A DNA stretch of 64,000 bases from Candidatus Saccharimonadota bacterium (GCA_027325485.1 DAIEFN010000003.1:1-64000); one strand, 5' to 3'. Positions 13,150 through 60,993 are shown, counted from the first letter of the stretch. The notes: generated by a model not told the origin, from the letters alone. Numbers and translations: made by a program.

Positions 13150-13832
13150 TCTTTAATAACTCCTTCAATCTTCTCGACGCTGCCATCTTTAATCATGACC
13201 CGGATATCACAGCGCTTCGCAATGTCTTGATCGTGCGTCACGATTACTAAAGCCGTACCGTGTTTACGGTGTAAATCAAACAGTAGGTTAATGACCTTAT
13301 CTCCTGTTGCGCTGTCTAAGTTACCGGTTGGTTCATCAGCTAATATAATTTTTGGATTACTGACAATTGCCCGCGCAATCGCTAGGCGTTGTTTCTCGCC
13401 ACCTGAGAGCGTAACAGCCTTACTTTTTATCTTGTCAAGCAAATCAACTTGCTTTAAAGCCTCTTCAATCTTCTGTCGTCGTTGCGCTACCGGTACCCGG
13501 TTAATTTCAAGTGGCAAAGCTACGTTTTGGTAACATGTCTGGTTTGGCTCCACGAAAAATGATTGAAAGACAAAGCCTAAATCTTGGCTGCGGTAATCAT
13601 CCATCTCGCGCTTACTTAATTGCGTTAAGTTTCGGCCGAGAATAATAACCTCACCGCTGGTTGGCCGATCTAGGCCACCAATTAAATGAAGCAATGTAGA
13701 TTTACCGGAACCACTCTTACCGATGATGGCAATGGTCTTAGTTTGTTCCAGCTTTAAATTTATATCCCGCACCGCTTGCATGGTGCTGTCTTTTTTGCCG
13801 TAAACTTTGCTTAAGTTGCGTGTCTCAATCAT
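13146..13832 (-). CDS. ABC transporter ATPase (LolD/MacB type)
   Basis: 228 residues with Walker A GKSGSGKSTLLH near 38, the family-typical FVFQSFF Q-loop near 90, signature LSGGEKQRLAIARAI near 143, Walker B ILADEPTGNLD near 164 and switch His VTHDQD. It terminates with UGA inside the ATGA overlap with the permease at 13146-13149, so the two subunits are coupled. Confidence 0.92.
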   Translation of the reverse strand: MIETRNLSKVYGKKDSTMQAVRDINLKLEQTKTIAIIGKSGSGKSTLLHLIGGLDRPTSGEVIILGRNLTQLSKREMDDYRSQDLGFVFQSFFVEPNQTCYQNVALPLEINRVPVAQRRQKIEEALKQVDLLDKIKSKAVTLSGGEKQRLAIARAIVSNPKIILADEPTGNLDSATGDKVINLLFDLHRKHGTALVIVTHDQDIAKRCDIRVMIKDGSVEKIEGVIKE

Positions 13833-13902
13833 GGTCGCGCTTTAACTATAGCGACACCTGAGAACTTAAGCTAGCTCTTACTTGGCAAGCCAAAGCTTAT
13901 TC

Positions 13903-14274
13903 TCAGTTTTCAAGTTCGCGGATTTTGTCGTGATTTAGGCCGTAGTAATGACCAATTTCGTGCCAAAGTGTGTGGCGGATATTTTCCTTAAGCTCAGCAA
14001 TGTTATTACTCGCCATCTCAAGGGGCAGTTTAAAGATTGTAATCTTATCGGGCAGAATTCGCGTCTGACCTTGCCGATAAGCTAATGGAACGCCCTCATA
14101 AAGACCAAACAACGTCTGGTCATGCCTTAGTTTTAAGCGCTCCCTTTGCTCAGCATCTGGCTCATAAGCATAGATAATTGCAACATTGGCAATGTTTTTA
14201 GCATGTTCACCAGGTAAACTCTCAAGCGCCTCAACGGTCAGTGACTGGAACAAATCATCATCAACATTAATCAT
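13903..14274 (-). CDS. Small zincin-like metallopeptidase
   Basis: 123 residues with HEIGHYYGLNHDKIRELE at the C-terminus, the HExxHxxGxxH-type zinc site of the short single-domain zincin family (PF06262-like). Members are cytoplasmic and widespread but of unsettled function. It follows lysS on the same strand with a gap of 9 bp and is likely in its operon. Confidence 0.75.
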   Translation of the reverse strand: MINVDDDLFQSLTVEALESLPGEHAKNIANVAIIYAYEPDAEQRERLKLRHDQTLFGLYEGVPLAYRQGQTRILPDKITIFKLPLEMASNNIAELKENIRHTLWHEIGHYYGLNHDKIRELEN

Positions 14275-14283
14275 CGTGACTAG

Positions 14284-15795: not shown

Positions 15796-15889
15796 AGTGC
15801 CACACTCATATATCTATTAGTTTAGCTTAATCAAATTATAGTATACGTTAAGCTAACTGCCACAAACTAAACTTAATTTTTGATCTGCC

Positions 15890-16357
15890 TTAAACGATTT
15901 CAGCAATTTTATAGACAGTACTCTCAACCGGAGTGTTGATCTCAACTTCGTCTTTTTCGTGCTTGCCAAGTAGTGCTTTGCCAATTGGCGATTCGTCACT
16001 AATCTTGCCATTTAAAGGATCAGCTTCAACCGTACCCACAATTTGAAATTCTTTAGTAGTACCATCATCGCTCTTGAGCCTGACTTTTGATCCAAGTTGG
16101 ACTTTAGCGCTACCATGTGGCGTCTTAATTAGCTCGACGTTTTGGAGGATGTGTTCAATCTCGGAAATACGTGACTCGTTACGCTCTTGAGCGGCACGGG
16201 CAGATTGGTATTCACTATTCTCGGATAAGTCACCAAACTCTCTGGCAGTTCTAATGCTCTCGGCAATTTCAGCACGCTCAGCAATCAAGCTATCAAGCTC
16301 GAGTGTTAGCTCTTCAATGCCCTCTTTGGTCAGATGAAATGTTTTCTTAACTACCAT
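15890..16357 (-). CDS. greA: Transcription elongation factor GreA
   Basis: 155 residues, close to the usual 158. The N-terminal coiled coil has the acidic tip in AREFGDLSENSEYQSA, which reaches the RNA polymerase active site and promotes cleavage of backtracked RNA. The C-terminal FKBP-like domain ends in ESTVYKIAEIV. It lies 10 bp downstream of proS. Confidence 0.95.
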   Translation of the reverse strand: MVVKKTFHLTKEGIEELTLELDSLIAERAEIAESIRTAREFGDLSENSEYQSARAAQERNESRISEIEHILQNVELIKTPHGSAKVQLGSKVRLKSDDGTTKEFQIVGTVEADPLNGKISDESPIGKALLGKHEKDEVEINTPVESTVYKIAEIV

Positions 16358-16367
16358 ACTATTTAGG

Positions 16368-17654
16368 TTAATCCTTTCTCTTCTTCTGGGATGTACCCTT
16401 GTCTTTAGTGTCGCTTACTAGTTCAAGCAAAGCCGTCAAATTCAAATGCTTTAATGTGTCGCTGGTTCTAGCTTTGATTTCGTAGTGTCCGTTTTCGATA
16501 AACTGTTCGCTAACTACTACTCGCCATGGAATTCCCATCAGATCTGCATCAGCGAACTTTTCACCGGGACGAACATCTCGGTCATCATATATTACCGCAA
16601 CCCCGTTGCCTGTCAATATATTATACAACTCATCGGCAGCTGAAATAGTTTTCTCTTTACCAATAGCTAATAAATAGACGCTTGCCGGAGCAATGTTTGG
16701 GTGCCAAATAAGTCCCCGTTCGTCGTTAAAATGCTCAGCAATGACGCCCATTAAGCGGCTAACTCCAATCCCATAAGAGCTCAGATATACTGGCTGTTTT
16801 TTACCAAACTCATCGTTAAAGTAGACATCCATCTGCTCTCCCTTAATTGCCCCGAAATTAAAGATATTGCCGACTTCTGCAGCCTTAACTTGTTTAAGAT
16901 CCGACTTATTGAGCCCAAGCTGAGCTAATATTTCGTCGTTATACACCTCTTCGTTAACCGCTATGCGTTTCGACTCATCAACATATATCGTGTCCTCACC
17001 ACTCGCAGTCACCGTCTGAAACTCGTGGCTAAATTGCGTAAATGAACCACCTGAAGCGAACGTCACATAAGTACTTTCGCCGAGCCCAACGCGCTCAAAA
17101 ACGCGTAGATAAGCTTCTTTGGTGCGGTTATAGAACTCATCTAGCTCATCTTGATTGCGCGAGAAAGTGTACATGTCCTTCATGATGAACTCGCGTCCAC
17201 GCATGACACCACTTTTAGCCCTCAGTTCGTTCCTAAATTTTGTTTGGAATTGGTAGACACTAGCTGGTAAATCACGATAACTAGTAATTCGTGAGCGGGC
17301 CATCATCATGATTGGCTCTTCATGACTCCAGCCAAAACCAACATCAGCGCCGTTTTTAAGCTGGCTCTTAAACCAGATGTCCACTACCTTGTCATCCCAG
17401 CGACCAGTTGGCCTCCAGGTATCCTTAGATTGAAGTGAGGTCATCAAAAGCTCAAGCGATCCTAGAGCGTTCATCTCTTCTCTGATGATTGTTTTAATAT
17501 TCTCAATCACTCTCAATCCTAGTGGCAAATAAGAATAGGCCCCAGCCATTTCTTTATGAATATAGCCGGCTCGAATTAACAGTTTGGCATTAATCGCCTG
17601 CTCTTCAGCTGGGACATTTTTAAGTGTCTTCGTTATATTCTGACTTAGTCGCAT
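16368..17654 (-). CDS. proS: Prolyl-tRNA synthetase without editing insertion
   Basis: 428 residues. Class II motifs are visible: motif 1 around AGAYSYLPLGLRVIENI, motif 2 FRNELRAKSGVMRGREFIMKD, and motif 3 SSYGIGVSRLMGVIAEH. The roughly 180-residue INS editing domain that sits between motifs 2 and 3 in long bacterial ProRS is absent, giving a compact enzyme. Mischarged Ala-tRNA-Pro would then need a free-standing editing factor or go uncorrected. The C-terminal anticodon-binding domain is present. Confidence 0.94.
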   Translation of the reverse strand: MRLSQNITKTLKNVPAEEQAINAKLLIRAGYIHKEMAGAYSYLPLGLRVIENIKTIIREEMNALGSLELLMTSLQSKDTWRPTGRWDDKVVDIWFKSQLKNGADVGFGWSHEEPIMMMARSRITSYRDLPASVYQFQTKFRNELRAKSGVMRGREFIMKDMYTFSRNQDELDEFYNRTKEAYLRVFERVGLGESTYVTFASGGSFTQFSHEFQTVTASGEDTIYVDESKRIAVNEEVYNDEILAQLGLNKSDLKQVKAAEVGNIFNFGAIKGEQMDVYFNDEFGKKQPVYLSSYGIGVSRLMGVIAEHFNDERGLIWHPNIAPASVYLLAIGKEKTISAADELYNILTGNGVAVIYDDRDVRPGEKFADADLMGIPWRVVVSEQFIENGHYEIKARTSDTLKHLNLTALLELVSDTKDKGTSQKKRKD

Positions 17655-17698
17655 AACTTGCTACCTGTTAAAACTTCCCTAGTTTTACTTAGTTTAAC

Positions 17699-18493
17699 CT
17701 ATCGATTAGTTAACACAAACAGATAGACAAAAGCGACCGCATTTTTAATGGCATGGAGGAATATTCCCGGCCATAAAGTTTTAGTCTTCTGCTTTACATA
17801 AACTAATACTAAGCTCAGGACGAATACGTCTAAAGCACCAATCCAAAACAAGCCACTACTGCCCCCTTCCGGCAAGTGAGCTGCCGCAAACAATACGCTA
17901 GTCAATATACCAGCGTAAATTACTGGCATCGATTTTTTTAAGCCTTCAAAGACAAAACCTCGAAACAGAAGTTCTTCTGCTATTGGTGGCAAAATAACTA
18001 AGCTTATGAAGGTCAGGACCAGCTGAGAGCTACCATGTACTGAATTAAAACCAATATTTTGAGCCTGATTTAGATTGAGACCATGAATAAGGTGGGTTGC
18101 AATACCGATCACTACTAAATAAATCACAAGATAGACTGGGTAAGCTATTAGCGCAATTCCACCGTCTTTAAGTCTCAAACGCTTAAAACCAATGGCTGCT
18201 AATGTTTTGCCATAACGACGTAGTAGAGCCCAAAGCAGCGCAATGATTAAGCCTTCAAATAAAAGTACGAACAAGAATTGCCCGCTGACTGAATTGCTGA
18301 GCCAATTGTTAGCAAATGTCGCATTCCACCCTCTGATAGCCGCATACAAAGACAAAATTATACTGGTGGCGAACTGACTAATAAAAAAGACTGCCCCTGC
18401 AATTAAGATAATGACAATCGGTAGCAGCCATTTAGGAATATGCTCCCAAGGACGAGCGGAAGAGTGCCAGAATGAAGTTTCTTGCTTCGCCAT
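17699..18493 (-). CDS. CPBP-family intramembrane protease
   Basis: 264 residues, hydrophobic, with about seven membrane helices. The CPBP/Abi (CAAX protease and bacteriocin-processing) motifs are present: EELLFRGFVFEGL near residue 168, then FAAAHL near 202 and a late His-containing helix (FLHAIKNA). These Glu and His residues form the active site in the Rce1/CPBP group. It follows the RseP-like protease gene by 3 bp, so two intramembrane proteases are encoded together. Confidence 0.85.
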   Translation of the reverse strand: MAKQETSFWHSSARPWEHIPKWLLPIVIILIAGAVFFISQFATSIILSLYAAIRGWNATFANNWLSNSVSGQFLFVLLFEGLIIALLWALLRRYGKTLAAIGFKRLRLKDGGIALIAYPVYLVIYLVVIGIATHLIHGLNLNQAQNIGFNSVHGSSQLVLTFISLVILPPIAEELLFRGFVFEGLKKSMPVIYAGILTSVLFAAAHLPEGGSSGLFWIGALDVFVLSLVLVYVKQKTKTLWPGIFLHAIKNAVAFVYLFVLTNR

Positions 18494-18496
18494 GAC

Positions 18497-19666
18497 TTAG
18501 AAAAAACGGTGTACGTCCACTAAGGTAATCAGGACAATTAAAACTAGTAATATAGCCATGCCGGTAGCGTTGATTGTTTCTTCAACTTTAGCCGAAAGTT
18601 GCTTACCAAAACCACGCGTTATCAAAGTCAACCATAACCGCCCACCATCTAACGCCGGAAGCGGCAAAATATTCATAATGGCAAGGGTTAGTGAAATGAT
18701 TGCAATAATAAACAACATGTATTTGTAGCCGAGCAAGCTACCGTCTTTTAAGATCACAAAGATGCCAACTGGACCAGCAACTTGAGCTGAAGCTACAGCC
18801 TGCCCATGTTGCCGGGCGTGCGTATTGCCGGTCACTAAACCAGCAACAATTTGGCCTAGTCCAACTAGCGCATGCCCCAAGCCAACAAAAGTAAGTTTAG
18901 TTATCTGCAACGTTAAGCCAACGGCTTCAACCGGAGCGGCCCACCAACTGTATTGTCTTAAGGCGAGCGAAGTTAAGGTAACTCCAAAATAGCCTTTTGG
19001 GCTGCTCGTATTACTACTAGCCTTAACAACTGCCGCACTTAATAAACGAACTTCCTTCTGGTATTCTTGGCCACTATTTTTGTACTTAACAACGACTTGC
19101 TGACCAGCAAAGTGTTGAGTCAGTTTCTGCATGTCTGAAATCGTATTTATGGGCTTTAAGGCTCCGGCTAAACCAATAGCTTCAATCTGGTTCTCACTGG
19201 ATATGCCAATACTTGCTGCCGGGCTGTTTGGTAGAACAGATGTCACTAATACTTCCTGACGCGATATGTGACTGCCGTGTGTAACGTTAAATTGGCCACC
19301 AACCAATTGTGGCAAGCCGAGCCAAGCCAAAATTATAAACAAGACTAGAGCTGTAATTAAGTTAAAAAAAACGCCGGCGGCCATAATCTTAGACTTCACC
19401 CAGAGCGTAGCGGCGCCAAAACTACCTGGCTCAGTATCGCTGTCGTGCTCACCTTTGAGTTTTACAAAACCGCCAAGTGGCAAAAGATTTATCGAAAAGA
19501 TCCACCCTTTCTTGGTTTTGCGTTTATATAATGCTGGTGGGAAAAAGATGCCAAATTCTTCAGCCACCACGCCGTTTCTACGCGCAACCCAAAAATGCCC
19601 CAGCTCATGAATGATCACTAAAGAAATAAATAGTAATATCCCGATGATAAAAATGAAGATCGACAT
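18497..19666 (-). CDS. rseP: RseP/M50 site-2-type zinc metalloprotease
   Basis: 389 residues. The first membrane helix holds HELGHF (residues 20-25), the zinc site of M50 proteases, and a late helix has the third-ligand motif LDGGRLW near residue 340. One PDZ-like segment lies between, near residues 130-205. It cuts membrane-embedded substrates such as anti-sigma factors or signal-peptide remnants; no anti-sigma gene is seen in the window. It sits in the frr-rseP-CPBP-proS order also common in other bacteria. Confidence 0.9.
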   Translation of the reverse strand: MSIFIFIIGILLFISLVIIHELGHFWVARRNGVVAEEFGIFFPPALYKRKTKKGWIFSINLLPLGGFVKLKGEHDSDTEPGSFGAATLWVKSKIMAAGVFFNLITALVLFIILAWLGLPQLVGGQFNVTHGSHISRQEVLVTSVLPNSPAASIGISSENQIEAIGLAGALKPINTISDMQKLTQHFAGQQVVVKYKNSGQEYQKEVRLLSAAVVKASSNTSSPKGYFGVTLTSLALRQYSWWAAPVEAVGLTLQITKLTFVGLGHALVGLGQIVAGLVTGNTHARQHGQAVASAQVAGPVGIFVILKDGSLLGYKYMLFIIAIISLTLAIMNILPLPALDGGRLWLTLITRGFGKQLSAKVEETINATGMAILLVLIVLITLVDVHRFF

Positions 19667-35311: not shown

Positions 35312-38068
35312 CTAGCTACAGCCGGTTGTGCTGCCGCAAGAAGTACAGACATAGCAACTACCTGAACGTTGAGTAACGTTGCCGCAGTTATAGCAGAGTG
35401 GCGCAGAGTGATCGACAATTGGGACACTACTACTGACTTCGGACTTAGGAATTTCGCTTTGCGTCACAATAGGTGCTTTAACCTTAGCCACTTCTTTTGG
35501 AGCTTCAGCGACAACGGCAACATTTAAGGATGTTTGCGCATCTGGCGCCATCAGTTCACTGAGATCGGCAAGACCTAGCTCTAAGCGGTCATCGAGGCTC
35601 AGATAGTCTGCAGCAAGCCGCCGGACAATGTAATCCGTTACTGAACTGGCCGTTCGAATTTCTAGATCGTCTGTTACGCCAGCTGGCGCAAATGAAGTGC
35701 CACGCAAAATTCGGACATAGTGCTTTAGTGGTACACCGTACTGCAAACCAAGACTGACTGATATTGCGAAGGAGTCCAGCAATCCTCTGAGTGTACTCCC
35801 CTGTTTACTGACGTTAACAAATAGTTCTCCTGGCTTACCGTCTTCATATTCACCAACTGTGAAATAGCCGTCTAAATCTGCTATTTGGAATTTGTAGGTT
35901 CGGCTGGTGCGGACTTTTGGTAGTTTGCGGCGCGCTGGTCCGTTAACAATTATCTTGTTATCGGCTTTGCTGTCTTCTTTCGCACCGTCTTTTTTAGCCA
36001 TCGATAATGGTTGGGCAACTTTACAGTTATCGCGGTAAATAGCGATTGCTTTAAGGCCCATTTTCCAGGCATCTAAGTGGAGCTGTTCAATGTCTTCAAC
36101 GCTAGCTTCTTCAGGCATGTTAACCGTCTTTGAAATCGCACCAGATATAAAGGGTTGTGCAGCTGCCATCATTTTAACGTGACCGAGGTAGTGAATTGAA
36201 TTGTCTCCCATTGAACAAGCAAATACCGGTAGATGTTCGCTCTTAAGCTCCGGCGCACCTACGATCGTCTTTTCGACATCAATGTATTTAATGATGTCGT
36301 CCACCTGCTGTTTGCTGTAGCCGAGCGATTTCAGGGCGCGTGGCACGGTTTGGTTAACAATACTCATCGAACCACCGCCGACTAGTTTCTTAACCTTTAC
36401 TAGACCGAGGTCTGGCTCAATGCCAGTAGTGTCGCAGTCCATCATTAAGCCAATGGTGCCAGTCGGAGCAAGCACGCTGGCTTGAGAGTTACGGACACCG
36501 TAACGCTCGCCTAACTCAACTGCTTCATCCCAAGCGTTAGCGGCAGCATTAAGCAAATCCTCACTAACTAGGCTTGCATCAATCTTAGAAACTTCAGCTC
36601 GGTGTTGTTTTAGCACTCGGATCATTGCTTCGCGGTCTTTGTTAAAGCCGGCAAAAGGTCCAACTTTAGAGGCCATCTTAGCCGAAGTGGCATAGGCATG
36701 ACCAGTTAGAAGAGCAGTAATAGCAGATGCCTGAGCGCGACCTTCGTCACTGTCGTAAGGCAATCCTTGGGCCATTAGGAGCGCACCAAGGTTAGCGTAA
36801 CCAATGCCAAGCTCACGGTAAGCGCGCGCGTTCTTAGTAATACTCTCAGTTGGATATGAGCTGTAGCCAACTAAGATTTCCTGAGCTGTAAAAATTAACT
36901 CAACTGTATGTTTAAATTCGTCAATTAAAAATGTTCCGTCATCTCTTAGGAACTTTAAGAGGTTGAGGCTGGCAAGATTACAAGCTGAGTTATCGAGGTG
37001 CATGTATTCACTGCACGGATTCGATCCATTAATCCGCCCGGCATTCGGTGCAGTGTGCCAATGGTTAATGATAGTATCAAATTGCATTCCCGGATCGGCA
37101 CATTCCCAAGCTGCTTCAGCGAATTGGCGGAAGAGGTCGTTCGCCTTTACGGTCCGGACCGTTTCGCCGGTAGTGACTGCCTTAAGATCCCAATCAGCCT
37201 TATTCTCTACTGCCTGCATGAAATCATCAGTAACCCGAACTGAAATGTTGGCGTTTTGGTACTGAACTGAAAAACTGTCCTTGCCATCTAAGGTCATGTC
37301 CCAGCCCATACTCTCGAGGTCGCGTGCTTTGCGTTCCTCAATTGCTTTGCTCCAGATAAAGTCATAAACATCCGGGTGATCCACATTTAAGATCACCATT
37401 TTTGCGGCCCGGCGGGTTTTACCGCCGCTCTTAATGGCGCCAGCACTAGCATCGGCGCCGCGCATAAAGCTTAATGGACCACTTGCGGTGCCGGCACTTT
37501 TACTAAGTTGCTCAAGACTACTGCGCAATGGGCTGAGGTTAATACCAGCGCCTGATCCACCTTTGAAGATCATGCCTTCTTCAACATACCAATTCAAAAT
37601 AGACTGCATGGTGTCTTCAATACCTAAGATAAAGCAAGCGCTAGCTTGCTGTGAGCGCGTCGGTACACCAATGTTAAACCAGACTGGTGAGTTAAAGGCA
37701 GCTCGTTGTGTTGCTAGGATATATTTAAGCTCTTCTTTAAAATCTTCAGCTACAGTTTGGGACTCAAAGTAGCCGACTTCCATACCATGAGTAGTGATTG
37801 TATCGACTACCCGATCAATTAAATGCTTAAGGGAGTGTTCACGTTCTTTAGTGCCGGGTGTGCCGCTGAAATATTTTTGCGCCACAATATTAATCGCGTT
37901 TTGTGACCATCCGAGCGGAAATTCAATATCTTTCTGCTCAAAAACCACTTCATTGGTCTGCGGATTAGTTAGCAGTGAGTGTCGTTTTTCCCACTTTAGT
38001 TGATCATAAGCTTTACTTTTGGCAGGAGTAAATACTCTGCCTGCACCTAAATCGGTTGCTTGTCCCAT
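35312..38068 (-). CDS. nrdJ: Adenosylcobalamin-dependent ribonucleotide reductase, class II
   Basis: 918 residues. Visible are the N-terminal WFNIGVPTRSQQASACFILG, GGSGAGINLSPLRSS, the substrate-binding NPCSEYMHLDNSACNLASLN near residue 352, and PTGTIGLMMDCDTTGIEPD near 520. The C-terminus ends with two CxxC pairs (CYNCG, CTSCG) and a final Cys region used for re-reduction. It makes deoxynucleotides without oxygen or a separate radical subunit, but needs vitamin B12, which a CPR cell would have to import. Regulated by NrdR, encoded upstream. Confidence 0.94.
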   Translation of the reverse strand: MGQATDLGAGRVFTPAKSKAYDQLKWEKRHSLLTNPQTNEVVFEQKDIEFPLGWSQNAINIVAQKYFSGTPGTKEREHSLKHLIDRVVDTITTHGMEVGYFESQTVAEDFKEELKYILATQRAAFNSPVWFNIGVPTRSQQASACFILGIEDTMQSILNWYVEEGMIFKGGSGAGINLSPLRSSLEQLSKSAGTASGPLSFMRGADASAGAIKSGGKTRRAAKMVILNVDHPDVYDFIWSKAIEERKARDLESMGWDMTLDGKDSFSVQYQNANISVRVTDDFMQAVENKADWDLKAVTTGETVRTVKANDLFRQFAEAAWECADPGMQFDTIINHWHTAPNAGRINGSNPCSEYMHLDNSACNLASLNLLKFLRDDGTFLIDEFKHTVELIFTAQEILVGYSSYPTESITKNARAYRELGIGYANLGALLMAQGLPYDSDEGRAQASAITALLTGHAYATSAKMASKVGPFAGFNKDREAMIRVLKQHRAEVSKIDASLVSEDLLNAAANAWDEAVELGERYGVRNSQASVLAPTGTIGLMMDCDTTGIEPDLGLVKVKKLVGGGSMSIVNQTVPRALKSLGYSKQQVDDIIKYIDVEKTIVGAPELKSEHLPVFACSMGDNSIHYLGHVKMMAAAQPFISGAISKTVNMPEEASVEDIEQLHLDAWKMGLKAIAIYRDNCKVAQPLSMAKKDGAKEDSKADNKIIVNGPARRKLPKVRTSRTYKFQIADLDGYFTVGEYEDGKPGELFVNVSKQGSTLRGLLDSFAISVSLGLQYGVPLKHYVRILRGTSFAPAGVTDDLEIRTASSVTDYIVRRLAADYLSLDDRLELGLADLSELMAPDAQTSLNVAVVAEAPKEVAKVKAPIVTQSEIPKSEVSSSVPIVDHSAPLCYNCGNVTQRSGSCYVCTSCGSTTGCS

Positions 38069-41783: not shown

Positions 41784-42173
41784 CTAAATCTGAATGACTT
41801 TTAGATTATTAATTTTAGAGAAGTCATTATCGGTAGTTAGAACTGACATATCGTATTCAAGCGCCAGTGCGGCTATCCATAAATCATTTGTTCCAATGGG
41901 CGTACCGGACTTACGCAGTTGCGAATAAATGTTTGCAAACATGGTTGTTGTTGCGTCACTGATAGTTATGGCTATAACATTCGGGGCATCAAGGAATCTA
42001 AGCAACAACTGTTCGTTTTCAGTTTTTTTAGTACCGCCAGCAAATCCAGCTCTAAGTTCGCCGACCACAATCAGGGGCACTAATATTGCGTTTTCGGGTT
42101 TAAAATAAGCTCGCAATTTTTGATTCCCACGGTTAAAACCCGAATACGCTGAGGTATCTAAGACAAATTTCAT
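41784..42173 (-). CDS. vapC: VapC-type PIN-domain toxin
   Basis: 129 residues. The PIN domain acidic residues are visible: Asp6 in VLDTSAY, Glu near 40 in VVGELRAGF, Asp near 97 in GTNDLWIAALA and Asp near 115 in TTDNDF. VapC proteins are Mg-dependent RNases that cut tRNA or rRNA. The start overlaps the antitoxin stop by 4 bp (ATGA), the normal VapBC coupling. Confidence 0.88.
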   Translation of the reverse strand: MKFVLDTSAYSGFNRGNQKLRAYFKPENAILVPLIVVGELRAGFAGGTKKTENEQLLLRFLDAPNVIAITISDATTTMFANIYSQLRKSGTPIGTNDLWIAALALEYDMSVLTTDNDFSKINNLKVIQI

Positions 42174-52618: not shown

Positions 52619-53500
52619 TTACTCTAACTTGCGTGCTAATACTGAACGCCCGTGGCGAGAACCAAGCCAAAAGGTTGGCAGCAATGCGACGGCTATTAAT
52701 AGAAATGTCCACCAAGATATAGTAGTCGAGCTGTTCTTACTTTGTGGCGCAGTGGTGTTAGTAGTGTGACTAGGGGCCAGCTGACCATTAGCCACCGCAA
52801 CCAAAGGCAAGAAAGTAGTTGAACCATTATTGTCGGTAGTTGTTACATCAACAAAGTAAATCCCAGCTGTAGAGTAGGTATGGCTAATATTAATCGTGCC
52901 ACTAAACGCACTACTTTTTAGGCTTGGCGATGAGCCATCGCCCCAAGTGGTACTGATTGCATAGGGTGGTGTACCGCCGCCAATCTTAATTGGCCAGACC
53001 AGCTGCTGACCTGGATTGGCTCCCTGCTCTGCATAGCTACTAGAAACTATTACCTGGCTACCAGGCGCTGAATACTGGCCACTATTAAAGGTGGCACTTA
53101 TTGTGTTTGACTGTGGCCCACTCTGACCTAGAGCATCAAAATCCTGAGCGTAAATACTATTAGTGGCATTGAATAAGCTGATCTTAAGGCTGTAGCTGCC
53201 ACCGGAGCAGACTGTTGAGCCTACGAAAACATTGTTATCAAAGATTTTTATTAGAAGATTGCTGGGACAGAGTCCGCCAACCGTAATCGGGATAGTGCTA
53301 AAAGTCTGCCCGCTAGATGGAACGGTGATGGTTGCCGGCATCGTTGGCGGTGCAGTCGGTATTGTCGCCTCAAGTCCCAAAGAACCAGATTGCGGGTTCT
53401 GTGAAGATCCGATTGCAGAGACGCTCGAGCTCAAACCCAACAACGAGACCGCCGCCAGCACAAAAATGGTGAACTTGCGACTACCTATACGGCGTTTCAT
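52619..53500 (-). CDS. Membrane-anchored surface protein with PKD-like domain
   Basis: 293 residues. A signal peptide (about residues 1-29, ending SVSAIG) leads to two beta-sandwich regions; the second (WPIKIGGGTPPYAISTTWGD, then ISHTYSTAGIYFVDVTTTD) has the PKD-type signature of a WGDG strand and a HTY strand. A Ser/Thr-rich stretch precedes a C-terminal membrane helix (STTISWWTFLLIAVALLPTF) and a basic tail. It is coupled to the DUF916-like gene by ATGA and is the third membrane anchor of the surface locus. Confidence 0.75.
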   Translation of the reverse strand: MKRRIGSRKFTIFVLAAVSLLGLSSSVSAIGSSQNPQSGSLGLEATIPTAPPTMPATITVPSSGQTFSTIPITVGGLCPSNLLIKIFDNNVFVGSTVCSGGSYSLKISLFNATNSIYAQDFDALGQSGPQSNTISATFNSGQYSAPGSQVIVSSSYAEQGANPGQQLVWPIKIGGGTPPYAISTTWGDGSSPSLKSSAFSGTINISHTYSTAGIYFVDVTTTDNNGSTTFLPLVAVANGQLAPSHTTNTTAPQSKNSSTTISWWTFLLIAVALLPTFWLGSRHGRSVLARKLE

Positions 53501-54504
53501 GGTCTTAATGTTGTCCTGTTGTCGCTGATTAATGAAGCAGTCTGAGCATTATGATATTTATGGAGTTTTCTGCGTACAAGCAACCATATAATAACGCCGA
53601 TTAAGACTAAGGCCGAAACAACTGCAACTATGAACCAGCCCTCAATGACATATATGGTAACCGATGCGCTCAATAAGCGCCCTGAGTTGCCATAACCAAA
53701 GTACCCAGAAACCTTATATTCGCCAAACCAATTAAGATGGCTGACTGGAACACTAAAATAGCGTGAGCTATCTGGCAAAACACTACCCGGAGATGCAGAA
53801 TTATTAATTGCCTGGGTCAGAATCGTCTTACTTCCGGACTGGACGACTATTTTACCAAAAGGTTGCTCTTGAACGTTGCCGCTATTAGTAAATTTAACGA
53901 CTGCTTTTAAGCCGTTTCTACTAAAGAATAGGCGGCTGAATCCCCCTTTATTCCCCTCTACTTTAAAACTAGCGATATTGAGCTGCTCATTTAGACCAGG
54001 TCCGGGCACGCTAACTAGTATTAGCGATGCAATATTCGCAGTTAAGGTTAGGCTTTGAGAACTAGTACTACTTACTGGCGCAAAGCGGACGGCTGCATAG
54101 TACCCGCCTCCGGAAGTATCTTGCGGGATGGTGATTAAGACATTTACAGTTGCTGTCTGATAAGGTAGCAAAGAAACATTCTTAATGGGCGCAACGAAAC
54201 TCGATAAACCATGCGGGTAGTTGCTGGGGGTGTTGAGAATTAATTGGGGTGAGCCATTATCCCCTTTAGCCGTAAAGTCATTAATGAAGACTTGGAGCTG
54301 GATTGGGTTCTTGGTTGGATTTGTAATGTAAATCGGTACGGTTTTGCTCTGCCCAGGCGCAATGCTGAGCTCAGTTCTAACCGGTGAAATTTTTAAGCCG
54401 TTAGCTTGAGCTGGTGAGCTAGAGGTTGCTGCCAACGTCGATGGCGCAATCAGAGCCATAGCTAAACTAAGGACTGCTGAAATCTTTATTGCCCGTCGAA
54501 GCAT
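53497..54504 (-). CDS. DUF916-like membrane-anchored surface protein, copy 2
   Basis: 335 residues. A signal peptide is followed by an immunoglobulin-like domain (KISPVRTELSIAPGQSKTVP and IYITNPTKNPIQLQVFIND) and a GGYYAAVRFAP strand, as in DUF916. A second beta domain (GSKTILTQAIN, VPVSHLNWFGEYKVSGYF) resembles DUF3324. A membrane helix near residues 292-314 and the basic tail RRKLHKYH end it. This is the CscA-like layout of Firmicutes WxL loci. It is paralogous to the gene at 55911. Confidence 0.7.
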   Translation of the reverse strand: MLRRAIKISAVLSLAMALIAPSTLAATSSSPAQANGLKISPVRTELSIAPGQSKTVPIYITNPTKNPIQLQVFINDFTAKGDNGSPQLILNTPSNYPHGLSSFVAPIKNVSLLPYQTATVNVLITIPQDTSGGGYYAAVRFAPVSSTSSQSLTLTANIASLILVSVPGPGLNEQLNIASFKVEGNKGGFSRLFFSRNGLKAVVKFTNSGNVQEQPFGKIVVQSGSKTILTQAINNSASPGSVLPDSSRYFSVPVSHLNWFGEYKVSGYFGYGNSGRLLSASVTIYVIEGWFIVAVVSALVLIGVIIWLLVRRKLHKYHNAQTASLISDNRTTLRP

Positions 54505-54561
54505 CTGGCGCTTACCCCTCTTAGTTTTTGTCTACCTGTTAGAAAAATAATAGCACGGGCT

Positions 54562-55626
54562 TTAGAAATTGCCCATGCCAATATAGGTTAAAGTTGTTGC
54601 GTAATAGCCGGGTGGCTGGCTACTGTTGATGTCGATAATGTAGCTAATGGTATACTCACGCAGATCAGAGGCCTGACTCGACGCAGCTACTAAATCACCG
54701 CTGGTATATTTAAAGGTGTTCGGTTGAGCGTAAGGTAGGAGTGGCGAGCCAGTACCGGGCCCTTGCGCATTACCGCCAATTGCCGGTTGGCTATTTGCTA
54801 CCAGGTTCAAACCAAACTGATCAATACCAGGTCTTGCGACACTAGCTGAAGATAATGGCGGAATGACATTGTTGCCAGAAGTCATGGAGCTACCATTAAC
54901 TTGAATCGAGTAGCCATTAAGGGCATTAGTTGCGACTAACATTTGGCTGGCTGAACTACTGGTAGCTAGGGGTGTTAAATTTCCAAAAGTAACATAGTTG
55001 CCACTGGCATTATTACAGTCCATGCCAGCAATACTGACCCCGATACAGAAGTAGAGGTAGGGCGGGACATAGGTGCTTACGGCTACAGAAGAGTTAATAT
55101 CTAAAGCAATTCCACCGTAATCAGTCGGTGAGCCGCTCGCATCCGTAGTCGGAAAGGTCTGGATGCGAGCATAAAAAGTCCCTTCCGGCGTCGGATTCGT
55201 AATATTGGCAAAATTAAAACTCAACGTTCCGGCCGCAACTATAGAAGGAGTCCTCGTAAGGATTAGGGTGTTAGCATTAGTTAAATTAGAAATAGTGAAA
55301 TCGCCTGGCGCTGACTGGCTGGCGATAGTACTAGCGGCAACATTTTGACCAACTGGAACAACACAACTGTCAGTTAGGAGGGGTGAGTTAGAGCAAAATT
55401 GCACCTCAATCGAGCCTAAAAGCTCACTACTGGTTGTCGAAAAGTTTAGATCATAACTAGTTACTAAGCCAGATGAGTCATTGGCAATATAAATACTTCG
55501 TGCACCCAGTTCCGTCGAGCCGTAAGCTACCGATACGCCAAGTAGCAGTATGGCAGCCAGGGGCATAATCTCAGCTGCCCATAAAGATAAACGGTGTAAG
55601 GCCGGAGTGGTTGTTAGGCGATGCAT
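54562..55626 (-). CDS. Secreted surface protein C (WxL-like C-terminal domain)
   Basis: 354 residues. A signal peptide cut near VAYGSTE is predicted. The N-terminal domain has LGARSIYI, EVQFCSNSP and ITNPTPEGTFYARIQTF, shared with protein B. The C-terminal domain has NGYSIQVNGS, DQFGLNLVAN and ends YTISYIIDINSSQPPGYYAT then TLTYIGMGNF, with a terminal Phe. This end resembles the last strands of WxL domains (GtYsatLtW...). There is no membrane anchor, so the protein would be released or bound by another surface protein. Confidence 0.65.
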   Translation of the reverse strand: MHRLTTTPALHRLSLWAAEIMPLAAILLLGVSVAYGSTELGARSIYIANDSSGLVTSYDLNFSTTSSELLGSIEVQFCSNSPLLTDSCVVPVGQNVAASTIASQSAPGDFTISNLTNANTLILTRTPSIVAAGTLSFNFANITNPTPEGTFYARIQTFPTTDASGSPTDYGGIALDINSSVAVSTYVPPYLYFCIGVSIAGMDCNNASGNYVTFGNLTPLATSSSASQMLVATNALNGYSIQVNGSSMTSGNNVIPPLSSASVARPGIDQFGLNLVANSQPAIGGNAQGPGTGSPLLPYAQPNTFKYTSGDLVAASSQASDLREYTISYIIDINSSQPPGYYATTLTYIGMGNF

Positions 55627-55647
55627 ACCATGCGCACCTTCAGCGGG

Positions 55648-55761
55648 TTAAAGCCAACGGCCTAGGATTGTTAATCGACTATTGGCGGTATCTGTCGTCA
55701 AGATTAATGTGCGCTGTAAGCAAATATTCCAGTTTGGATAAGATTTGTCTAGCTTCTTCAT
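55648..55761 (-). CDS. Possible 37-residue upstream ORF
   Basis: Starts MKKLDKSYPNWN in the leader of surface protein C, ending just before its ATG. No Shine-Dalgarno, no signal peptide, no resemblance. It may be fortuitous. Confidence 0.15.
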   Translation of the reverse strand: MKKLDKSYPNWNICLQRTLILTTDTANSRLTILGRWL

Positions 55762-55779
55762 TTTGTTAAATTATTTGTT

Positions 55780-55830
55780 TTTGCCTTTAGCATATCTTAT
55801 ACGTTTATGCTTAAAATAGCAAGCTACGCA
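55780..55830 (-). promoter_or_regulatory. Candidate promoter for surface protein C
   Basis: TTGCTA, 17 bp, TAAGAT on the minus strand, giving a leader of about 160 nt. Confidence 0.4.
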
Positions 55831-55910
55831 CACCTATCTTAAACTTGATGCTGGGCGTAATTTAACTTAAACGATTTTATACTAAAGCGCTAAACAAAAG
55901 CAGATAAGCC

Positions 55911-56855
55911 TTATTTTTGCGAACGGTGGTAATACCTGAGATAGAAAATGGAAATTAAGACTAGAAGTGCAACTAAACTTAAAAAGGTCCACAGCATCCA
56001 GAGCGGAATGACGTAAAAAGTGGCGGATGCGGCCAATAGTTGACCTCGCGACCCATAGCCAAAGTTGCCATAAACGGTGTATTTCCCAAACGAACCAATA
56101 CCGTTCAGTTTTGCAGTGTAGAATCTTTCGCTACTAGGTAGAATATAGCGGTTTTCCCTATTCACTGCGGTGTTGCTAAGATCTTTCTTGCCAGCACGCA
56201 GTACGAAGTTACCAAAGGGCTGAAGTTGCACATTGCCCGTATTTTTAAAGTACACAATGCCGTAGATATCTTTATTACTAGTAAACAAGCGGTGGATATG
56301 CCCCTTACTGTCGCCTGCTCCTAAGCTTGCGATGTTTAGGACTTGATGCAAGTTACCCGGTACAGTTACGAATATTAAGCTTGCAACGCTACCGGAAAGA
56401 TTAACATTACTGCCCGAAGCTAGAGATTTAGGAGCAAACCGGACAGCAGCAAAGTAGCCACCAGAGGCAGTATTACGAGGGATCGTAATATTAACTTGAA
56501 CGCTCTCTTCTTGGCCGGGGGTTAACGTAAAACTGTTACTCGGTATCGTTATAAACTGCTTTAAGCTGTAGTTAGAGCTAGCGCCGTTTAGCAACAATTC
56601 TGGGGTGCCATCATTTGATGGAGCTTCAATAAAATCGTTAACAATGGCGCTGACCTGCTCAACATCATGCGAAATATTCTGAATGTATAGGGTGATAGTT
56701 GTTGTGGAACCTTCGTTAACTACCAGTGAATTAATTAAAGGTGCGACGTTATAACCGTTAGCTCCAGGGTTAGAAGGTGCGGTAGTGGCTAAAGCACGAA
56801 CTGAGGACACTAAGATCAAGGCAGCACTAGCAATAAATAGGATATTTCTTTTCAA
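55911..56855 (-). CDS. DUF916-like membrane-anchored surface protein, copy 1
   Basis: 314 residues, a paralogue of the gene at 53497. Signal peptide at residues 1-23. The first domain has YNVAPLINSLVVNEGSTTTI, NISHDVEQVSAIVNDFIEAP and GGYFAAVRFAP. The second has GKKDLSNTAVNREN and LNGIGSFGKYTVYGNFGYG. A C-terminal helix (VIPLWMLWTFLSLVALLVLI) and a basic tail follow. It lies between secreted proteins B and C. By analogy with CscA it could anchor these proteins; this is inference. Confidence 0.7.
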   Translation of the reverse strand: MKRNILFIASAALILVSSVRALATTAPSNPGANGYNVAPLINSLVVNEGSTTTITLYIQNISHDVEQVSAIVNDFIEAPSNDGTPELLLNGASSNYSLKQFITIPSNSFTLTPGQEESVQVNITIPRNTASGGYFAAVRFAPKSLASGSNVNLSGSVASLIFVTVPGNLHQVLNIASLGAGDSKGHIHRLFTSNKDIYGIVYFKNTGNVQLQPFGNFVLRAGKKDLSNTAVNRENRYILPSSERFYTAKLNGIGSFGKYTVYGNFGYGSRGQLLAASATFYVIPLWMLWTFLSLVALLVLISIFYLRYYHRSQK

Positions 56856-56914
56856 GCTCTTTGTTCCCCTTAGTCCTTACGTTTGAGAAAATTATACTAT
56901 CTGGCAGTCTATTT

Positions 56915-56946
56915 AACAAAACTAGCAGGCTTATTTAGCCTGCTAG
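56915..56946 (-). terminator. Strong terminator after surface protein B
   Basis: Perfect 10-bp stem CTAGCAGGCT/AGCCTGCTAG (56946-56937, 56931-56922) with a 5-nt loop and TTTTGTT tail on the minus strand. It makes gene B monocistronic. Confidence 0.88.
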
Positions 56947-56978
56947 ATGATATAACCTTAACTTGCTTAAAGGTTGGT

Positions 56979-58229
56979 CTAGAAGTTGGCGGTTGCGACC
57001 AGGTTGAGGTTGGCATTATAGATGCCGCTTGGGGTTGTACTGTTGATGTTAGCAATGAAAGTTAGGTAGCCCGTATTGGTAGCTACTGGTCCGGTTGAGG
57101 ACACCACCGTACTACCGCCAGCGAAGTTGGTGCCACCGGCTGAGTTTGCATCGTTAAAGCCAAACTGACTTGTAGCAAGTAGTGGCGAGGTACCTGGAGT
57201 GTACGCTGTACCTTCAGTCAAGGAAGCGCAAGCGTTAGAGGCAGAGTCGCCCTTATAGGTTGTTGCAGGTGTAACTGAGCCGGCAAAGCTTGCGACGCCA
57301 GCACACATACCAAATTGAGGAGTGTTCAATGCTGCTGCGACGGCAGTTGATCCGAGAGCAGCAATAGTCGGAGCCGGAGAGGCACCTTCGCAGTTTGCAT
57401 AGGTAAGGGTTAGGGCTGAACAGAGGGTTGTACCCGTCATAGTTACTGTGACTCCGTTTTGGGCATTGGTACCAAGTTGGTACTGTACAGCCGAGCTTCC
57501 ATAAGTATTAGCTGTGCTCAAAGCTTCGTTCGTAGCTGTACCTAGGTGAGCAGCAGGAGCTGTGCCACAAGCAGTTGTGTAGACACAGAAATCGAGCGTT
57601 TCAAAAACTTTGGCTTGAACATTAATGGTCTGAGCTGTACTTAAGGCATCACCACCTTGGTCAACTACTGCAGCACCGGCACTTGGGTTAGTGGAGGTGT
57701 AACCAGTAGCGCCTGCAGCGGATGCGAAAGTAAAGATACGTGCGTAAAATGAACCTGGGTAGCTAGCTGGTGTTGGGTTAGTGATACCGGTCATTGTGAT
57801 TGTAATGACCGTAGATCCGGCAGTCACAGAAGGACAGGTAGCGCTACAGGTCAATACGGCTCGTGTGGCAGTACTGCTTGTTGCAGCCCATGTTCCGGTA
57901 AGTGATGTGGTGTCACTAGTGGTAATAGTTAGTCCAGTTAATGATCCTGACCCTGTCGTACAGGTGTCTCCAGGAATTGGGTCGTTGGCACAAAAATCGA
58001 CGACCATACCGGAAACAGTTCCCGTAGTGGCCGCTTTAAAGCTGGCCGTATAGGTTACGCCAGTTGCGCCTGGAGCTGAACTGCTCATCGTAATTGAGCG
58101 CGGTTCGAGTTCCCCAGTTGCACCTGCAGTTCCGCCAAATATAAATACAAAAGGCGCTGCAAATCCTACAGTGAAAACTGTAGCTATAAAGCCTGTACCG
58201 ACACGTCTAATAATATTATTTTTTTTCAT
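56979..58229 (-). CDS. Secreted surface protein B, candidate major surface protein
   Basis: 416 residues, very rich in Thr/Ala/Ser/Gly. A signal peptide ends near AGATGELEP. The N-terminal domain (EPRSITM, VVDFCANDP, GITNPTPASYPGSFYARIFT) matches that of protein C. The C-terminal domain ends LTFIANINSTTPSGIYNANL then NLVATANF, the shared signature. Six to eight Cys are positioned as probable disulfide pairs. Own promoter, A-rich leader and strong terminator suggest high expression, so it may be the main surface or S-layer-like protein. The start region is a 17-bp tandem duplication. Confidence 0.7.
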   Translation of the reverse strand: MKKNNIIRRVGTGFIATVFTVGFAAPFVFIFGGTAGATGELEPRSITMSSSAPGATGVTYTASFKAATTGTVSGMVVDFCANDPIPGDTCTTGSGSLTGLTITTSDTTSLTGTWAATSSTATRAVLTCSATCPSVTAGSTVITITMTGITNPTPASYPGSFYARIFTFASAAGATGYTSTNPSAGAAVVDQGGDALSTAQTINVQAKVFETLDFCVYTTACGTAPAAHLGTATNEALSTANTYGSSAVQYQLGTNAQNGVTVTMTGTTLCSALTLTYANCEGASPAPTIAALGSTAVAAALNTPQFGMCAGVASFAGSVTPATTYKGDSASNACASLTEGTAYTPGTSPLLATSQFGFNDANSAGGTNFAGGSTVVSSTGPVATNTGYLTFIANINSTTPSGIYNANLNLVATANF

Positions 58230-58252
58230 TTTTTATTTTTTTTCATTTTTTA
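58219..58252 (-). repeat. 17-bp tandem duplication at the start of surface protein B
   Basis: Two exact 17-bp copies (58219-58235 and 58236-58252), each with an ATG followed by eight A. The upstream ATG opens a six-codon ORF (MKKNKK) whose TGA overlaps the true start as ATGA. Confidence 0.85.
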
Positions 58253-58264
58253 ATTTATGCTCGC

Positions 58265-58320
58265 ATCATAAGTCCTTATGCTTGTCTTGGCAAGACTAAG
58301 ACAAATAAGGCTGTGGATAA
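58265..58320 (-). promoter_or_regulatory. Promoter of surface protein B with operator-like palindrome and DnaA box
   Basis: -35 TTGCCA (58293-58288), 17-bp spacer, -10 TATGAT (58270-58265). GTCTTGGCAAGAC (58284-58296) is a perfect palindrome around the -35 box. TGTGGATAA (58312-58320), a consensus DnaA box, lies just upstream. Confidence 0.7.
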
Positions 58321-58345
58321 CTGGTTGGCGAGATGGGTACTTTTC

Positions 58346-59116
58346 CTAGAATGTAGGTAGCGCAACCAATACTTGGTTCATATTGTAGACGCCAGCTGGG
58401 GTGACACTGCTAATATTAGCGATATATGAAATTGTGTAGTCTGTTTCGCCTGAACTTGTAGCTGAGCTAGCGATAGTGTCTCCATTATTATATAAGAATT
58501 CACCGCAATGAGAATAATTAGTAGCAGCAACACCATTACTGTAGCTCGAGCTCGGCACCTGAGCTGGATTTGCACCAAAATTGGCTGGAGCGGCCGGCGA
58601 ACAACTAGTTAAGTTACTAACTAAGTTAATACCAAACTGCTCCGTGCCAACGGCCGAGGCAGTTGGGGTGCTTGGTGACGCCAATGTATGGACGCCATTG
58701 CTAGGCGGAGGCGAAATGGTTTCAATAACGTAACCACTAGACAAGTAAGACTCTACTGAAAAAGTTGCCGTTTGGGTAGCTGTAGCGACTGTACTCAATA
58801 CGCCTAGGTTGACGCTCGTGGTATTGACTAATAATTGCAGGGACGGATCACGGTTGACCTCAAAACCCGGATAAGCCTGATAGTCGGTACTACTGGTCAG
58901 GCCGGCGCTGGTTTCGCCAAGTGTCTGAGCGGCGCAGTAGGAAGTTGAACAAGTAGTGTCTAGTGACCCCCCGCTACCAAATATATAATTGCCGACGCCA
59001 TAAGTCGTTGAGCATGATTGTTGATCCAATGAACAAGCGTACGCATTCTTTACACCAAGCCCACTTAATAGCATTAGTAGCGCAAAGACTAATAGCAGCT
59101 TACTGACTTTCCTCAT
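58346..59116 (-). CDS. Secreted surface protein A (WxL-like C-terminal domain)
   Basis: 256 residues from ATG 59114-59116 (MRKVSKLLLVFALLML), preferred over the ATG at 59146 because a TATATA box lies 6 nt upstream of it. A signal peptide ending NAYA then Cys-rich mature N-terminus (CSLDQQSCSTTYG). The C-terminal part has EQFGINLVSN and ends DYTISYIANISSVTPAGVYN then MNQVLVALPTF, the same signature as proteins B and C. It lacks the N-terminal domain of B and C. Confidence 0.65.
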   Translation of the reverse strand: MRKVSKLLLVFALLMLLSGLGVKNAYACSLDQQSCSTTYGVGNYIFGSGGSLDTTCSTSYCAAQTLGETSAGLTSSTDYQAYPGFEVNRDPSLQLLVNTTSVNLGVLSTVATATQTATFSVESYLSSGYVIETISPPPSNGVHTLASPSTPTASAVGTEQFGINLVSNLTSCSPAAPANFGANPAQVPSSSYSNGVAATNYSHCGEFLYNNGDTIASSATSSGETDYTISYIANISSVTPAGVYNMNQVLVALPTF

Positions 59117-59222
59117 ATAAGCTATATATTGCGAAAAATTACACAAAAACGCAAACCGTTAGCGCTTTTTGGGCAATTTTTAGTATAGTCATTATTATAT
59201 AAATTAATTAGATAAGTGTTGT

Positions 59223-60149
59223 ATGCAAGACGAGCAAAAAGGTTTAGAAGCTAAGGAAAGCACCGAATCATCACTTGAGTACCGCCCCAGTGATAATCAA
59301 GACAGTCAACCACCCGTATCCCCTCCGCAAGCCGCAACTCCACCTAAAGGTAAAAAAATAGACGAAGTCCGGCGTCGCCTATCTGCGCACTGGTCAATTT
59401 ATGTACCCGTCTTTCTAATTTTAGTAATCATCCTAATTTTGGGTGCAATTTTGCTTTACCATAATCAAAACGGCAACAAAGTCAGCTTAAAAGAGCAGAA
59501 CCTTTCAGCTTCCCAGCTCAATAGTTTAGCGAGCACTAATGACACGATTGGTAGCTCTAACCAAGTTCTAACTGTCCAAAGCAGCGCCATTTTTAGCTCT
59601 CAGGTGCTTATCCGAGGTCAGCTGCAAGTAGCAGGACAACTGCAACTCTCACAGCTGGCAGTCAGCAAAGATCTATCGATTGCCGGCAATGCCTCAATTC
59701 AAGGTAGTTTAACAATCCAAAACGGCATAAATGTGAGTGGCAACGGCACTTTCTCTGGAGCACTGTCCACGCCCCAGCTAACGACCGCTGCACTGCAATT
59801 AAACGGCAATCTAACTCTCTCACATCATTTATTAATTAGCGGTTCAATTCCTAGCCGTACTACTGGATCGGCTACTGGTAATGGCGGTACAACATCGGTC
59901 AATGGATCAGATACGGCTGGCACACTTACGATTAATACTGGCAGCAGTCCTTTTGCTGGCTGCTACGAAACAGTGACGTTTACAACCCCCTTTAGCGGCA
60001 CACCACACATGTTGTTAACGCCAATTGGCGCAAGCTCTGCTACTCTAACGTATTACGTTAACCGAACCAGTACTGCATTTAGCATTTGTTCAGACAACGC
60101 TCCGCAAGCAGGCCAGACCTATGTCTTTGATTACTTCGTTATTGACTAG
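59223..60149 (+). CDS. Single-pass membrane protein with beta-repeat stalk
   Basis: 308 residues. A polar, Pro-rich cytoplasmic segment of about 60 residues, a membrane helix (IYVPVFLILVIILILGAILL), then extracellular repeats of the form LQVAGQLQLSQLAVSKDLSI with short hydrophobic strands and Gly/Asn turns. This suggests a beta-helix or bactofilin-like stalk. A Gly/Thr/Ser linker leads to a C-terminal beta domain (YETVTFTTPFSGTPHMLLT...QTYVFDYFVID) like phage-tail-tip or adhesin knobs. Possibly a host or cell contact protein. It converges with the next gene. Confidence 0.6.
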   Translation: MQDEQKGLEAKESTESSLEYRPSDNQDSQPPVSPPQAATPPKGKKIDEVRRRLSAHWSIYVPVFLILVIILILGAILLYHNQNGNKVSLKEQNLSASQLNSLASTNDTIGSSNQVLTVQSSAIFSSQVLIRGQLQVAGQLQLSQLAVSKDLSIAGNASIQGSLTIQNGINVSGNGTFSGALSTPQLTTAALQLNGNLTLSHHLLISGSIPSRTTGSATGNGGTTSVNGSDTAGTLTINTGSSPFAGCYETVTFTTPFSGTPHMLLTPIGASSATLTYYVNRTSTAFSICSDNAPQAGQTYVFDYFVID

Positions 60150-60993
60150 AGATTATTGCGTAAGCAGCACCTAGGCTAATTGCAAAGATAACTACTGCAA
60201 TTGCTACCACTCGCACCAAGTTAACAACAATCGCCCGTTTAGCTAACGGATTGCGGCCGATTGAAATGAAGCCGTTCTTAATACCTGAATAAATTATGGT
60301 GATCGTAATTACTAAACCAGCCACAACACACAGCATGCCGAGATAGATACGGCTAGCGCTGACTGTCTTATTGGTCGCAAACTTAGTTAACTTGTTTAGG
60401 AAGGCTGGGACGCCTTTTGATCCTTGCGCCAGTGGGTTGTTGGCAATATTGATATCGACTGGAATAGCGCCAATATTAACCGTTGTCTTTTGACCAGTCG
60501 AGCTAGTTAGGCTACTGCTACTTAGAACATTATGGACGCCATCAAATGCCGAAGCGGCCTGTCCTAGAACGAGTGACTCGTTACTATCCGCCTTCATGCC
60601 AAGACCGCTTAAAGCCGAAACAGTAATATAGTCACCGACATTAATTGGACCGTTCTGGTTGGTGACTAATACTGAGTGTTGGCCAAAATTAGATACATAT
60701 ACTTGCTGCGCAGTTGGGGCCACTTGACTCAGAGTTAGGGCTGCCTCATTCGCAGATATGACGACACCAAGCATTTGATTAATATGAGTCAAATCTAGTG
60801 CTGTCACCTGGCCACTGTTGCTGGCATCAAGGCGCACAATCATGCCGGGCTGAAGATTAGACGAACTAGTGTAGGCTTGAGCCACCAGTTGAGCCACAGC
60901 CCCTACTCCATTAGACATCGTAGAGAAGCTCAGCGCAAAGATGGCGAAGGCTAACCACGCGGCTGACTTAAAACGGATATGCTTAATAACCAT
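60139..60993 (-). CDS. Exported membrane protein with G2/chaperone-like segment
   Basis: 284 residues. A signal or anchor helix is at about residues 10-33. The extracellular part has VLVTNQNGPINVGDYITVSA and GLGMKADSNESLVLGQAAS, reminiscent of the autoproteolytic intramolecular chaperone (peptidase G2-like) of trimeric fibres. Two membrane helices close the C-terminus. Its 3' end overlaps the convergent gene by 11 bp. The two may act together at the surface, by inference. Confidence 0.5.
   Translation of the reverse strand: MVIKHIRFKSAAWLAFAIFALSFSTMSNGVGAVAQLVAQAYTSSSNLQPGMIVRLDASNSGQVTALDLTHINQMLGVVISANEAALTLSQVAPTAQQVYVSNFGQHSVLVTNQNGPINVGDYITVSALSGLGMKADSNESLVLGQAASAFDGVHNVLSSSSLTSSTGQKTTVNIGAIPVDINIANNPLAQGSKGVPAFLNKLTKFATNKTVSASRIYLGMLCVVAGLVITITIIYSGIKNGFISIGRNPLAKRAIVVNLVRVVAIAVVIFAISLGAAYAIISSQ

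Follow-up and report, generated by a model that had tools for sequence, protein, structure and literature searches.

Gene content of the locus

The window analysed here is a stretch of 64,000 nucleotides from a Candidatus Saccharimonadota bacterium (GCA_027325485.1, DAIEFN010000003.1:1-64000). It carries a run of six open reading frames, all of them present on the minus strand from 59146 down to 52619, in which, as a preliminary description of the sequence had set out, secreted proteins of pilin type alternate with two DUF916-like proteins and a PKD protein closes the series (Table 1); rpsA and infB come after this last gene in the window. The first gene, encoding PamT, probably starts at the ATG at 59116, in agreement with the end coordinate that had been proposed for the region. 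The Pam gene names are those of NCBIfam 20.0 models, used with their curated cut-offs, and by their match to these sequence models PamT, the two Pam pilins and PamR are assigned to a Pam pilus locus, a kind of locus already named in NCBIfam. The word 'pilus' is the choice of the curators of that collection, and the filament is here a prediction from the genes. What had been called a PKD-type anchor is indeed a PKD protein with a C-terminal transmembrane segment (TM), and its identity can now be given as PamR. No NCBIfam 20.0 model matches the W proteins, the product of the gene at 59223 ('BacF') or that of 60139-60993 ('N60') above its cut-off.

The families found here are those of the Pam system of CPR bacteria (NF058578, NF058579 and NF058581), and the same gene set recurs in 80 other loci, and the locus in the window is a well-conserved further member of a recently named system. 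To the NCBIfam account of Pam we add the predicted WxLIP/chaperone fold of the W proteins and a block of F1-ATPase genes.

Table 1. Features of the Pam locus and of the two genes that flank it, in window coordinates.
Feature	Position	Strand	Product or context	Basis
PamT	58346..59146	-	secreted, 266 aa	NF058579, E 1.3e-82, 276.9 bits (cut-off 240)
Diverged two-domain Pam pilin	56979..58229	-	secreted, 416 aa	NF058581, E 5e-10, 39.6 bits (cut-off 55)
Terminator-like hairpin	56922..56946	-	between pilin 56979 and the W1 gene	10 pairs, 6 GC
W1	55911..56855	-	WxLIP/DUF916-like; two Ig-like domains and C-terminal TM helix	PF06030, 22.8 bits; alignment
Pam pilin	54562..55626	-	two Ig-like domains; secreted, 354 aa	NF058581, E 9.5e-46, 155.5 bits (cut-off 55)
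W2	53497..54504	-	WxLIP-like, with C-terminal TM helix	PF06030, 27.8 bits (cut-off 27.3); AlphaFold fold
PamR	52619..53500	-	secreted PKD/RbmA-like protein, C-terminal TM	NF058578, E 2.6e-104, 348.2 bits (cut-off 300)
BacF	59223..60149	+	N-terminal TM, bactofilin-like beta-repeat, conserved C-domain	weak PF04519; homologue beside PamT in relatives
N60	60139..60993	-	signal peptide and ectodomain, then a hairpin of two TM helices at the C-terminus, its loop G-R-N-P; candidate membrane partner of the second F1-ATPase of relatives	operon position

The secreted proteins and the membrane-tethered W proteins

A C-terminal signature common to the three secreted proteins had been noticed beforehand, and it is real. 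Their last 30 residues are identical at 10-15 of 30 positions in each pairwise comparison, all three chains end in Phe, and the common C-terminal unit extends beyond this end motif to about 130-150 residues. Chance falls far short of explaining the likeness, since a single curated model, that of the Pam pilin C-domain (NF058581), recognises each of the three proteins: in addition to pilin 54562, which exceeds the cut-off, and pilin 56979, which falls below it (Table 1), the model matches PamT with an E-value of 6e-46 and 156.1 bits against a cut-off of 55, and these are exactly the three places that it finds in the whole genome assembly. Alignment of the proteins identifies an N-terminal domain that is common to the two pilins and absent from PamT. 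PamT is a candidate tip or terminal subunit, and pilin 56979 a candidate major subunit.

The terminator-like hairpin sits just 3' of the gene for pilin 56979, and folding of a locus from the same genus (L086) places at the equivalent point of its P2-W1 gap a strong hairpin of other sequence, accompanied by a T-run. A hairpin behind this pilin gene, present also in the sister genome, fits with a high output of the pilin, greater than that of the W protein encoded next, and it is possible that the element acts as a partial terminator that sets the ratio of pilin to chaperone.

Searches of the PDB by sequence, whether with single proteins of the locus or with a pilin profile, gave no match. An AlphaFold model of pilin 54562 (mean pLDDT 87.5) has as its best 50 of 1676 PDB folds mostly integrins, MSCRAMM and Als proteins, antigen I/II and fimbrial adhesins, and its likenesses include CfaE, PapG and BslA; whole-chain TM-scores are low in these fold comparisons, in which the models are multi-domain.

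The preliminary description took the two intervening proteins, W1 and W2, for DUF916-like anchors. At the level of sequence the matches to PF06030 lie around the cut-off of 27.3 bits, which W2 exceeds in one scan and misses in another (25.2 bits) and which W1 does not reach, and a W profile retrieves EfmWxLIP1 from the PDB at an E-value of about 0.3 only. Structure prediction bears the description out. The AlphaFold model of W2, built with 15 homologues (mean pLDDT 84.2), consists of two Ig-like domains followed by a C-terminal TM helix (residues 289-327), and its three best PDB folds are WxLIP chains from E. faecium (9i1y and 9i25, E 8e-12 to 6e-11), with a match that spans most of both domains. 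Among the folds that come next, many belong to periplasmic chaperones of pilus assembly (CfaA, YadV, CsuC, DraB and CupB2). The modelled fold of W is that of WxLIP and of the pilus chaperones.

Within the W2 model, residues 147-154 have pLDDT values below 50 and lie in a flexible hairpin. An alignment of W1, W2 and 14 relatives (16 sequences) has hydrophobic residues at positions 152, 154, 156 and 158 in 75-100% of the sequences, as against at most 25% at positions 153, 155 and 157, and this alternation is the pattern that would be expected of a donor strand. A hairpin of WxLIP has been predicted with AlphaFold to insert a strand into WxL and so complete its sandwich (Hassan et al., 2023, PMC10599100). 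In its fold, its donor-strand-like alternation of hydrophobic residues and its flexible hairpin, W resembles the chaperones of chaperone-usher pili (FimC, CfaA, CsuC-type); it differs from them in that its C-terminal helix holds it in the cytoplasmic membrane, and an outer-membrane usher is not expected in a monoderm lineage.

These features could be accommodated by arrangements other than a pilus. The preliminary description proposed a divergent or convergent system of WxL/Csc type, perhaps for host-cell attachment. In such a cluster, WxL-like secreted proteins would bind peptidoglycan and W would retain them at the wall, no filament being formed. Such loci of the Firmicutes are alike in having a membrane-anchored partner of two Ig-like domains, the first of them PF06030-like, together with secreted beta-sandwich partners, and they share both a cluster plan in which one WxLIP accompanies two secreted proteins and the strand insertion predicted for WxLIP (PMC10599100). 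Of that proposal the WxLIP-like anchors and the conserved neighbourhood stand, but the secreted proteins fall in the Pam pilin and PamT families. None of the three matches the WxL domain (PF13731) at E<=5, W-x-L motifs number zero in all of them, as had been remarked at the outset, and their Trp content is 0-1 each; nor is there a WxL chain among the best 50 of the 1676 folds compared with the pilin 54562 model. WxL identity was rejected on these grounds as a claim of family membership, although a remote kinship of fold between the pilin C-domain and WxL is possible. The anchors, too, depart from those of the Firmicutes: a DUF3324 (PF11797) second domain has no sequence match at E<=5 in W1 or W2, and the NQIDKxxxYFDLK motif is absent from both. 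A tblastn search of W against plasmids, aimed at Firmicutes WxL sequences for profile comparison, gave no useful match. The combination of secreted proteins of the Pam pilin families with WxLIP-like anchors therefore indicates a pilus locus that shares an anchor/chaperone fold with WxL loci, rather than a Csc locus. It would work somewhat like a WxL/WxLIP pair, yet it is not a WxL cluster, and we regard a wall-bound complex of that type as quite improbable.

Staphylococcal and Als adhesins are numerous among the best folds of the pilin, and in several relatives giant surface proteins of beta-helix, CBM or LVIVD type are encoded after PamR, as might be the case if the Ig-like proteins formed a non-filamentous adhesin coat, each displayed individually in the manner of MSCRAMMs and held by W and PamR. 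However, paralogous repeated subunits, a one-domain PamT and a partner with a chaperone fold are together the anatomy of a polymer, and it is a pilus that the NCBIfam curators name; such a coat is, in our view, improbable.

Conservation of the neighbourhood and a second F1-ATPase

Recurrence of the neighbourhood in other Saccharibacteria had been put forward as a check, and it is found. A PamR profile search of genome contigs identified 80 loci, most of them titled Saccharibacteria or Saccharimonadia and many simply 'bacterium', in which W stands beside PamR without exception (80/80) and pilins (75/80), PamT (55/80) and BacF (54/80) are also found; many of the loci that miss a gene are short or truncated by the end of a contig. 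In relatives with a good PamR the order, as far as contig limits allow, is a divergent BacF followed by PamT, pilins, W and PamR. A Pam pilin is present in 91 of 158 genomes of the order, and the Pam locus is found in the complete genome of the cultured isolate TM7i (CP075337.1). Matches to PamR outside the class (E 1e-5 to 1e-11) look like cross-matches between PKD/Ig domains and were left uncounted. One contig titled Chlamydiae bacterium (L138, CAJCIR010000032.1) has PamR and W and is probably a mis-binned Saccharibacterial contig. Directly 3' of PamR, very large surface proteins are encoded in L036, L040, L041, L043, L044 and L045 and are absent from the window; they are variable, LVIVD, NosD beta-helix and CBM_4_9 being found in the three that were scanned, and are possibly host-specific adhesins.

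The block of which Pam forms part extends to BacF and N60, and in several relatives an F1-ATPase gene set lies between these two. Type IV pilus genes were considered for this interval and rejected, Pfam identifying the products as F1-ATPase subunits. The order in TM7i (L196) is N60, a b-like coiled coil, delta, alpha, gamma, beta, epsilon, BacF and PamT. Among the 38 loci with at least 1.2 kb of sequence beyond BacF, the next gene is F1 beta in 24 and N60, the arrangement of the window, in 8; in one genome (G031) PamT, BacF, the second F1 (F1'), N60 and a nifS-like gene are contiguous. In sister genomes of the window the F1 set is found elsewhere, beside genes that, from their sequence, we take to be mnmA/alaS-like and nifS-like. 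No F1 gamma is found in the window's own assembly, which is 83% complete, and its own F1' is therefore either missing from the assembly or absent. In L129, L134, L147 and L156 (about 1000-2550) a protein of about 506 aa with an N-terminal XRE-like helix-turn-helix follows BacF and replaces the F1 genes.

Most of the genomes with this F1 set also carry a canonical F1Fo elsewhere, the gamma subunit of which scores about 255-315 bits, compared with about 80-120 for that of the second F1. Like F1Fo ATP synthase, the second F1 of the relatives comprises alpha, beta, gamma, delta and epsilon subunits with a b-like coiled coil, and nearly all the beta copies examined keep the P-loop GGAGVGKTV (Walker A) and the catalytic Glu of GER. 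Unlike F1Fo, it has neither an a nor a canonical c subunit of its own: in all 23 genomes compared (23/23) a single a passes the cut-off, located in a canonical operon, and in 22 of the 23 a single c does so, with no second one. The place in the operon where a and c would be expected is occupied by N60, with its ectodomain. The G-R-N-P loop of the N60 hairpin is invariant, as it is in the c subunits of the same genomes, and none of 17 N60 hairpins (0/17) has an Asp or Glu at the ion-binding position (R+19 to R+21). Comparison of N60 and c profiles gave a probability of 34% and a score of 23.4, as against at most 13.3 for 30 column-shuffled controls, which is suggestive of kinship between the hairpin sequence and F0 c. 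An F1-like ATPase with an unknown membrane sector is also known in the mycoplasma type. N60 homologues occur in an operon with the second F1 in L037-L044, L086-L098 and L196; at G382:C1 (L098), positions 3999-19001, the second F1 set is followed by N60 and an ORF of more than 3000 aa, with no Pam locus adjoining, and in other genomes segments like the N60 ectodomain are found within ORFs of about 550-3100 aa.

Of 157 genomes compared, 84 have both Pam and F1', 6 have Pam alone, 25 F1' alone and 42 neither (odds ratio 23.5), and the corresponding figures for N60 and F1' are 102, 3, 7 and 45 (odds ratio 219); both ratios are inflated by relatedness, the statistics being uncorrected for phylogeny. 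The Pam-F1' table for one family (f2) reads 13/2/2/29. In another (f1) almost every genome has F1', N60 alone follows the distribution of Pam, and since the Pam-F1' association there is weak (Fisher p 0.09) and phylogeny is uncorrected, we do not call F1' a required part of Pam. For the ATPase block alone, a rival reading is that F1' and N60 have no functional tie to Pam and are a spare F1 left near the locus by common descent. The 25 genomes with F1' and no Pam agree with this, as does the family in which F1' occurs almost irrespective of Pam; nevertheless F1' is found in 84 of the 90 Pam-positive genomes, the genomes of three genera (g15, g325 and g329) have either both Pam and F1' or neither, and N60 or F1 beta adjoins BacF in 32 of the 38 loci with room for it, and on balance we consider the absence of any functional relation to be a serious but somewhat doubtful explanation.

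A model for Pam fibre assembly

We think it likely that the locus specifies a Pam-type pilus of a Saccharibacterium, in which W acts as a strand-donating chaperone of Ig-like pilins and PamR serves as the anchor of the fibre. According to this model, the pilins would be exported via Sec and each would be bound by W, tethered to the membrane by its C-terminal helix. W would stabilise the pilin by inserting a strand beside its flexible hairpin (approximately residues 147-158), a step modelled on the predicted WxLIP-WxL pairing and on the pairing of fimbrial chaperones with pilins, and subunits would then be passed to the fibre. PamT, without the pilin N-domain, would be placed at one end of the fibre, and PamR would form its base at the membrane. 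The role of the fibre is probably attachment to the host bacterium. More speculatively, the F1-type ATPase of the block in relatives may energise the assembly or movement of a surface structure; the window's own genome has no F1 gamma, and this part of the explanation therefore rests on the relatives.

A rotary surface machine is possible. In its full form, which we hold to be unlikely, the Pam block would include a dedicated F1 rotary ATPase, N60 would replace the ion-conducting F0, and ATP hydrolysis in the cytoplasm would rotate or push ectodomains arranged as a ring on the cell exterior. N60 would here supply a c-ring-like hairpin, with G-R-N-P for the central stalk, a carboxylate that has been lost and an extracellular domain, and the ectodomain ring would power the surface fibre's assembly, anchoring or movement with no pumping of ions. 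If it is coupled to the surface, the F1-ATPase that lacks a and c would act as a rotary motor directed outwards and not at ions, and its genomic tie to Pam is the part of this work most worth following.

The Pam system bears on the question of how the ultrasmall Patescibacteria seize a host. Within the literature that we found, type IV pili are the only structure shown to act in this process (PMC12206443, PMC13293708). Pam offers a second candidate fibre that is not a type IV pilus, and more than half of the order's sampled genomes carry it. The isolate TM7i is known to attach by means of pili (PMC13293708, PMC12206443), and as Pam is present in this cultured organism it can now be tested in a living system. 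The predicted fold of W would also tie the WxL loci of Gram-positive bacteria to chaperone-usher pili through one possible mechanism, strand donation. A literature search, with preprints and most subscription papers outside its range, found no prior account of Pam, of the second F1 or of a link between them.

Elsewhere in the window, this reduced genome encodes a ribonucleotide reductase of the vitamin B12-dependent class (NF005122) at 35312-38068 and, next to ftsA/ftsZ at 41784-42173, a VapC-like toxin from a type II toxin-antitoxin pair, under its model cut-off.
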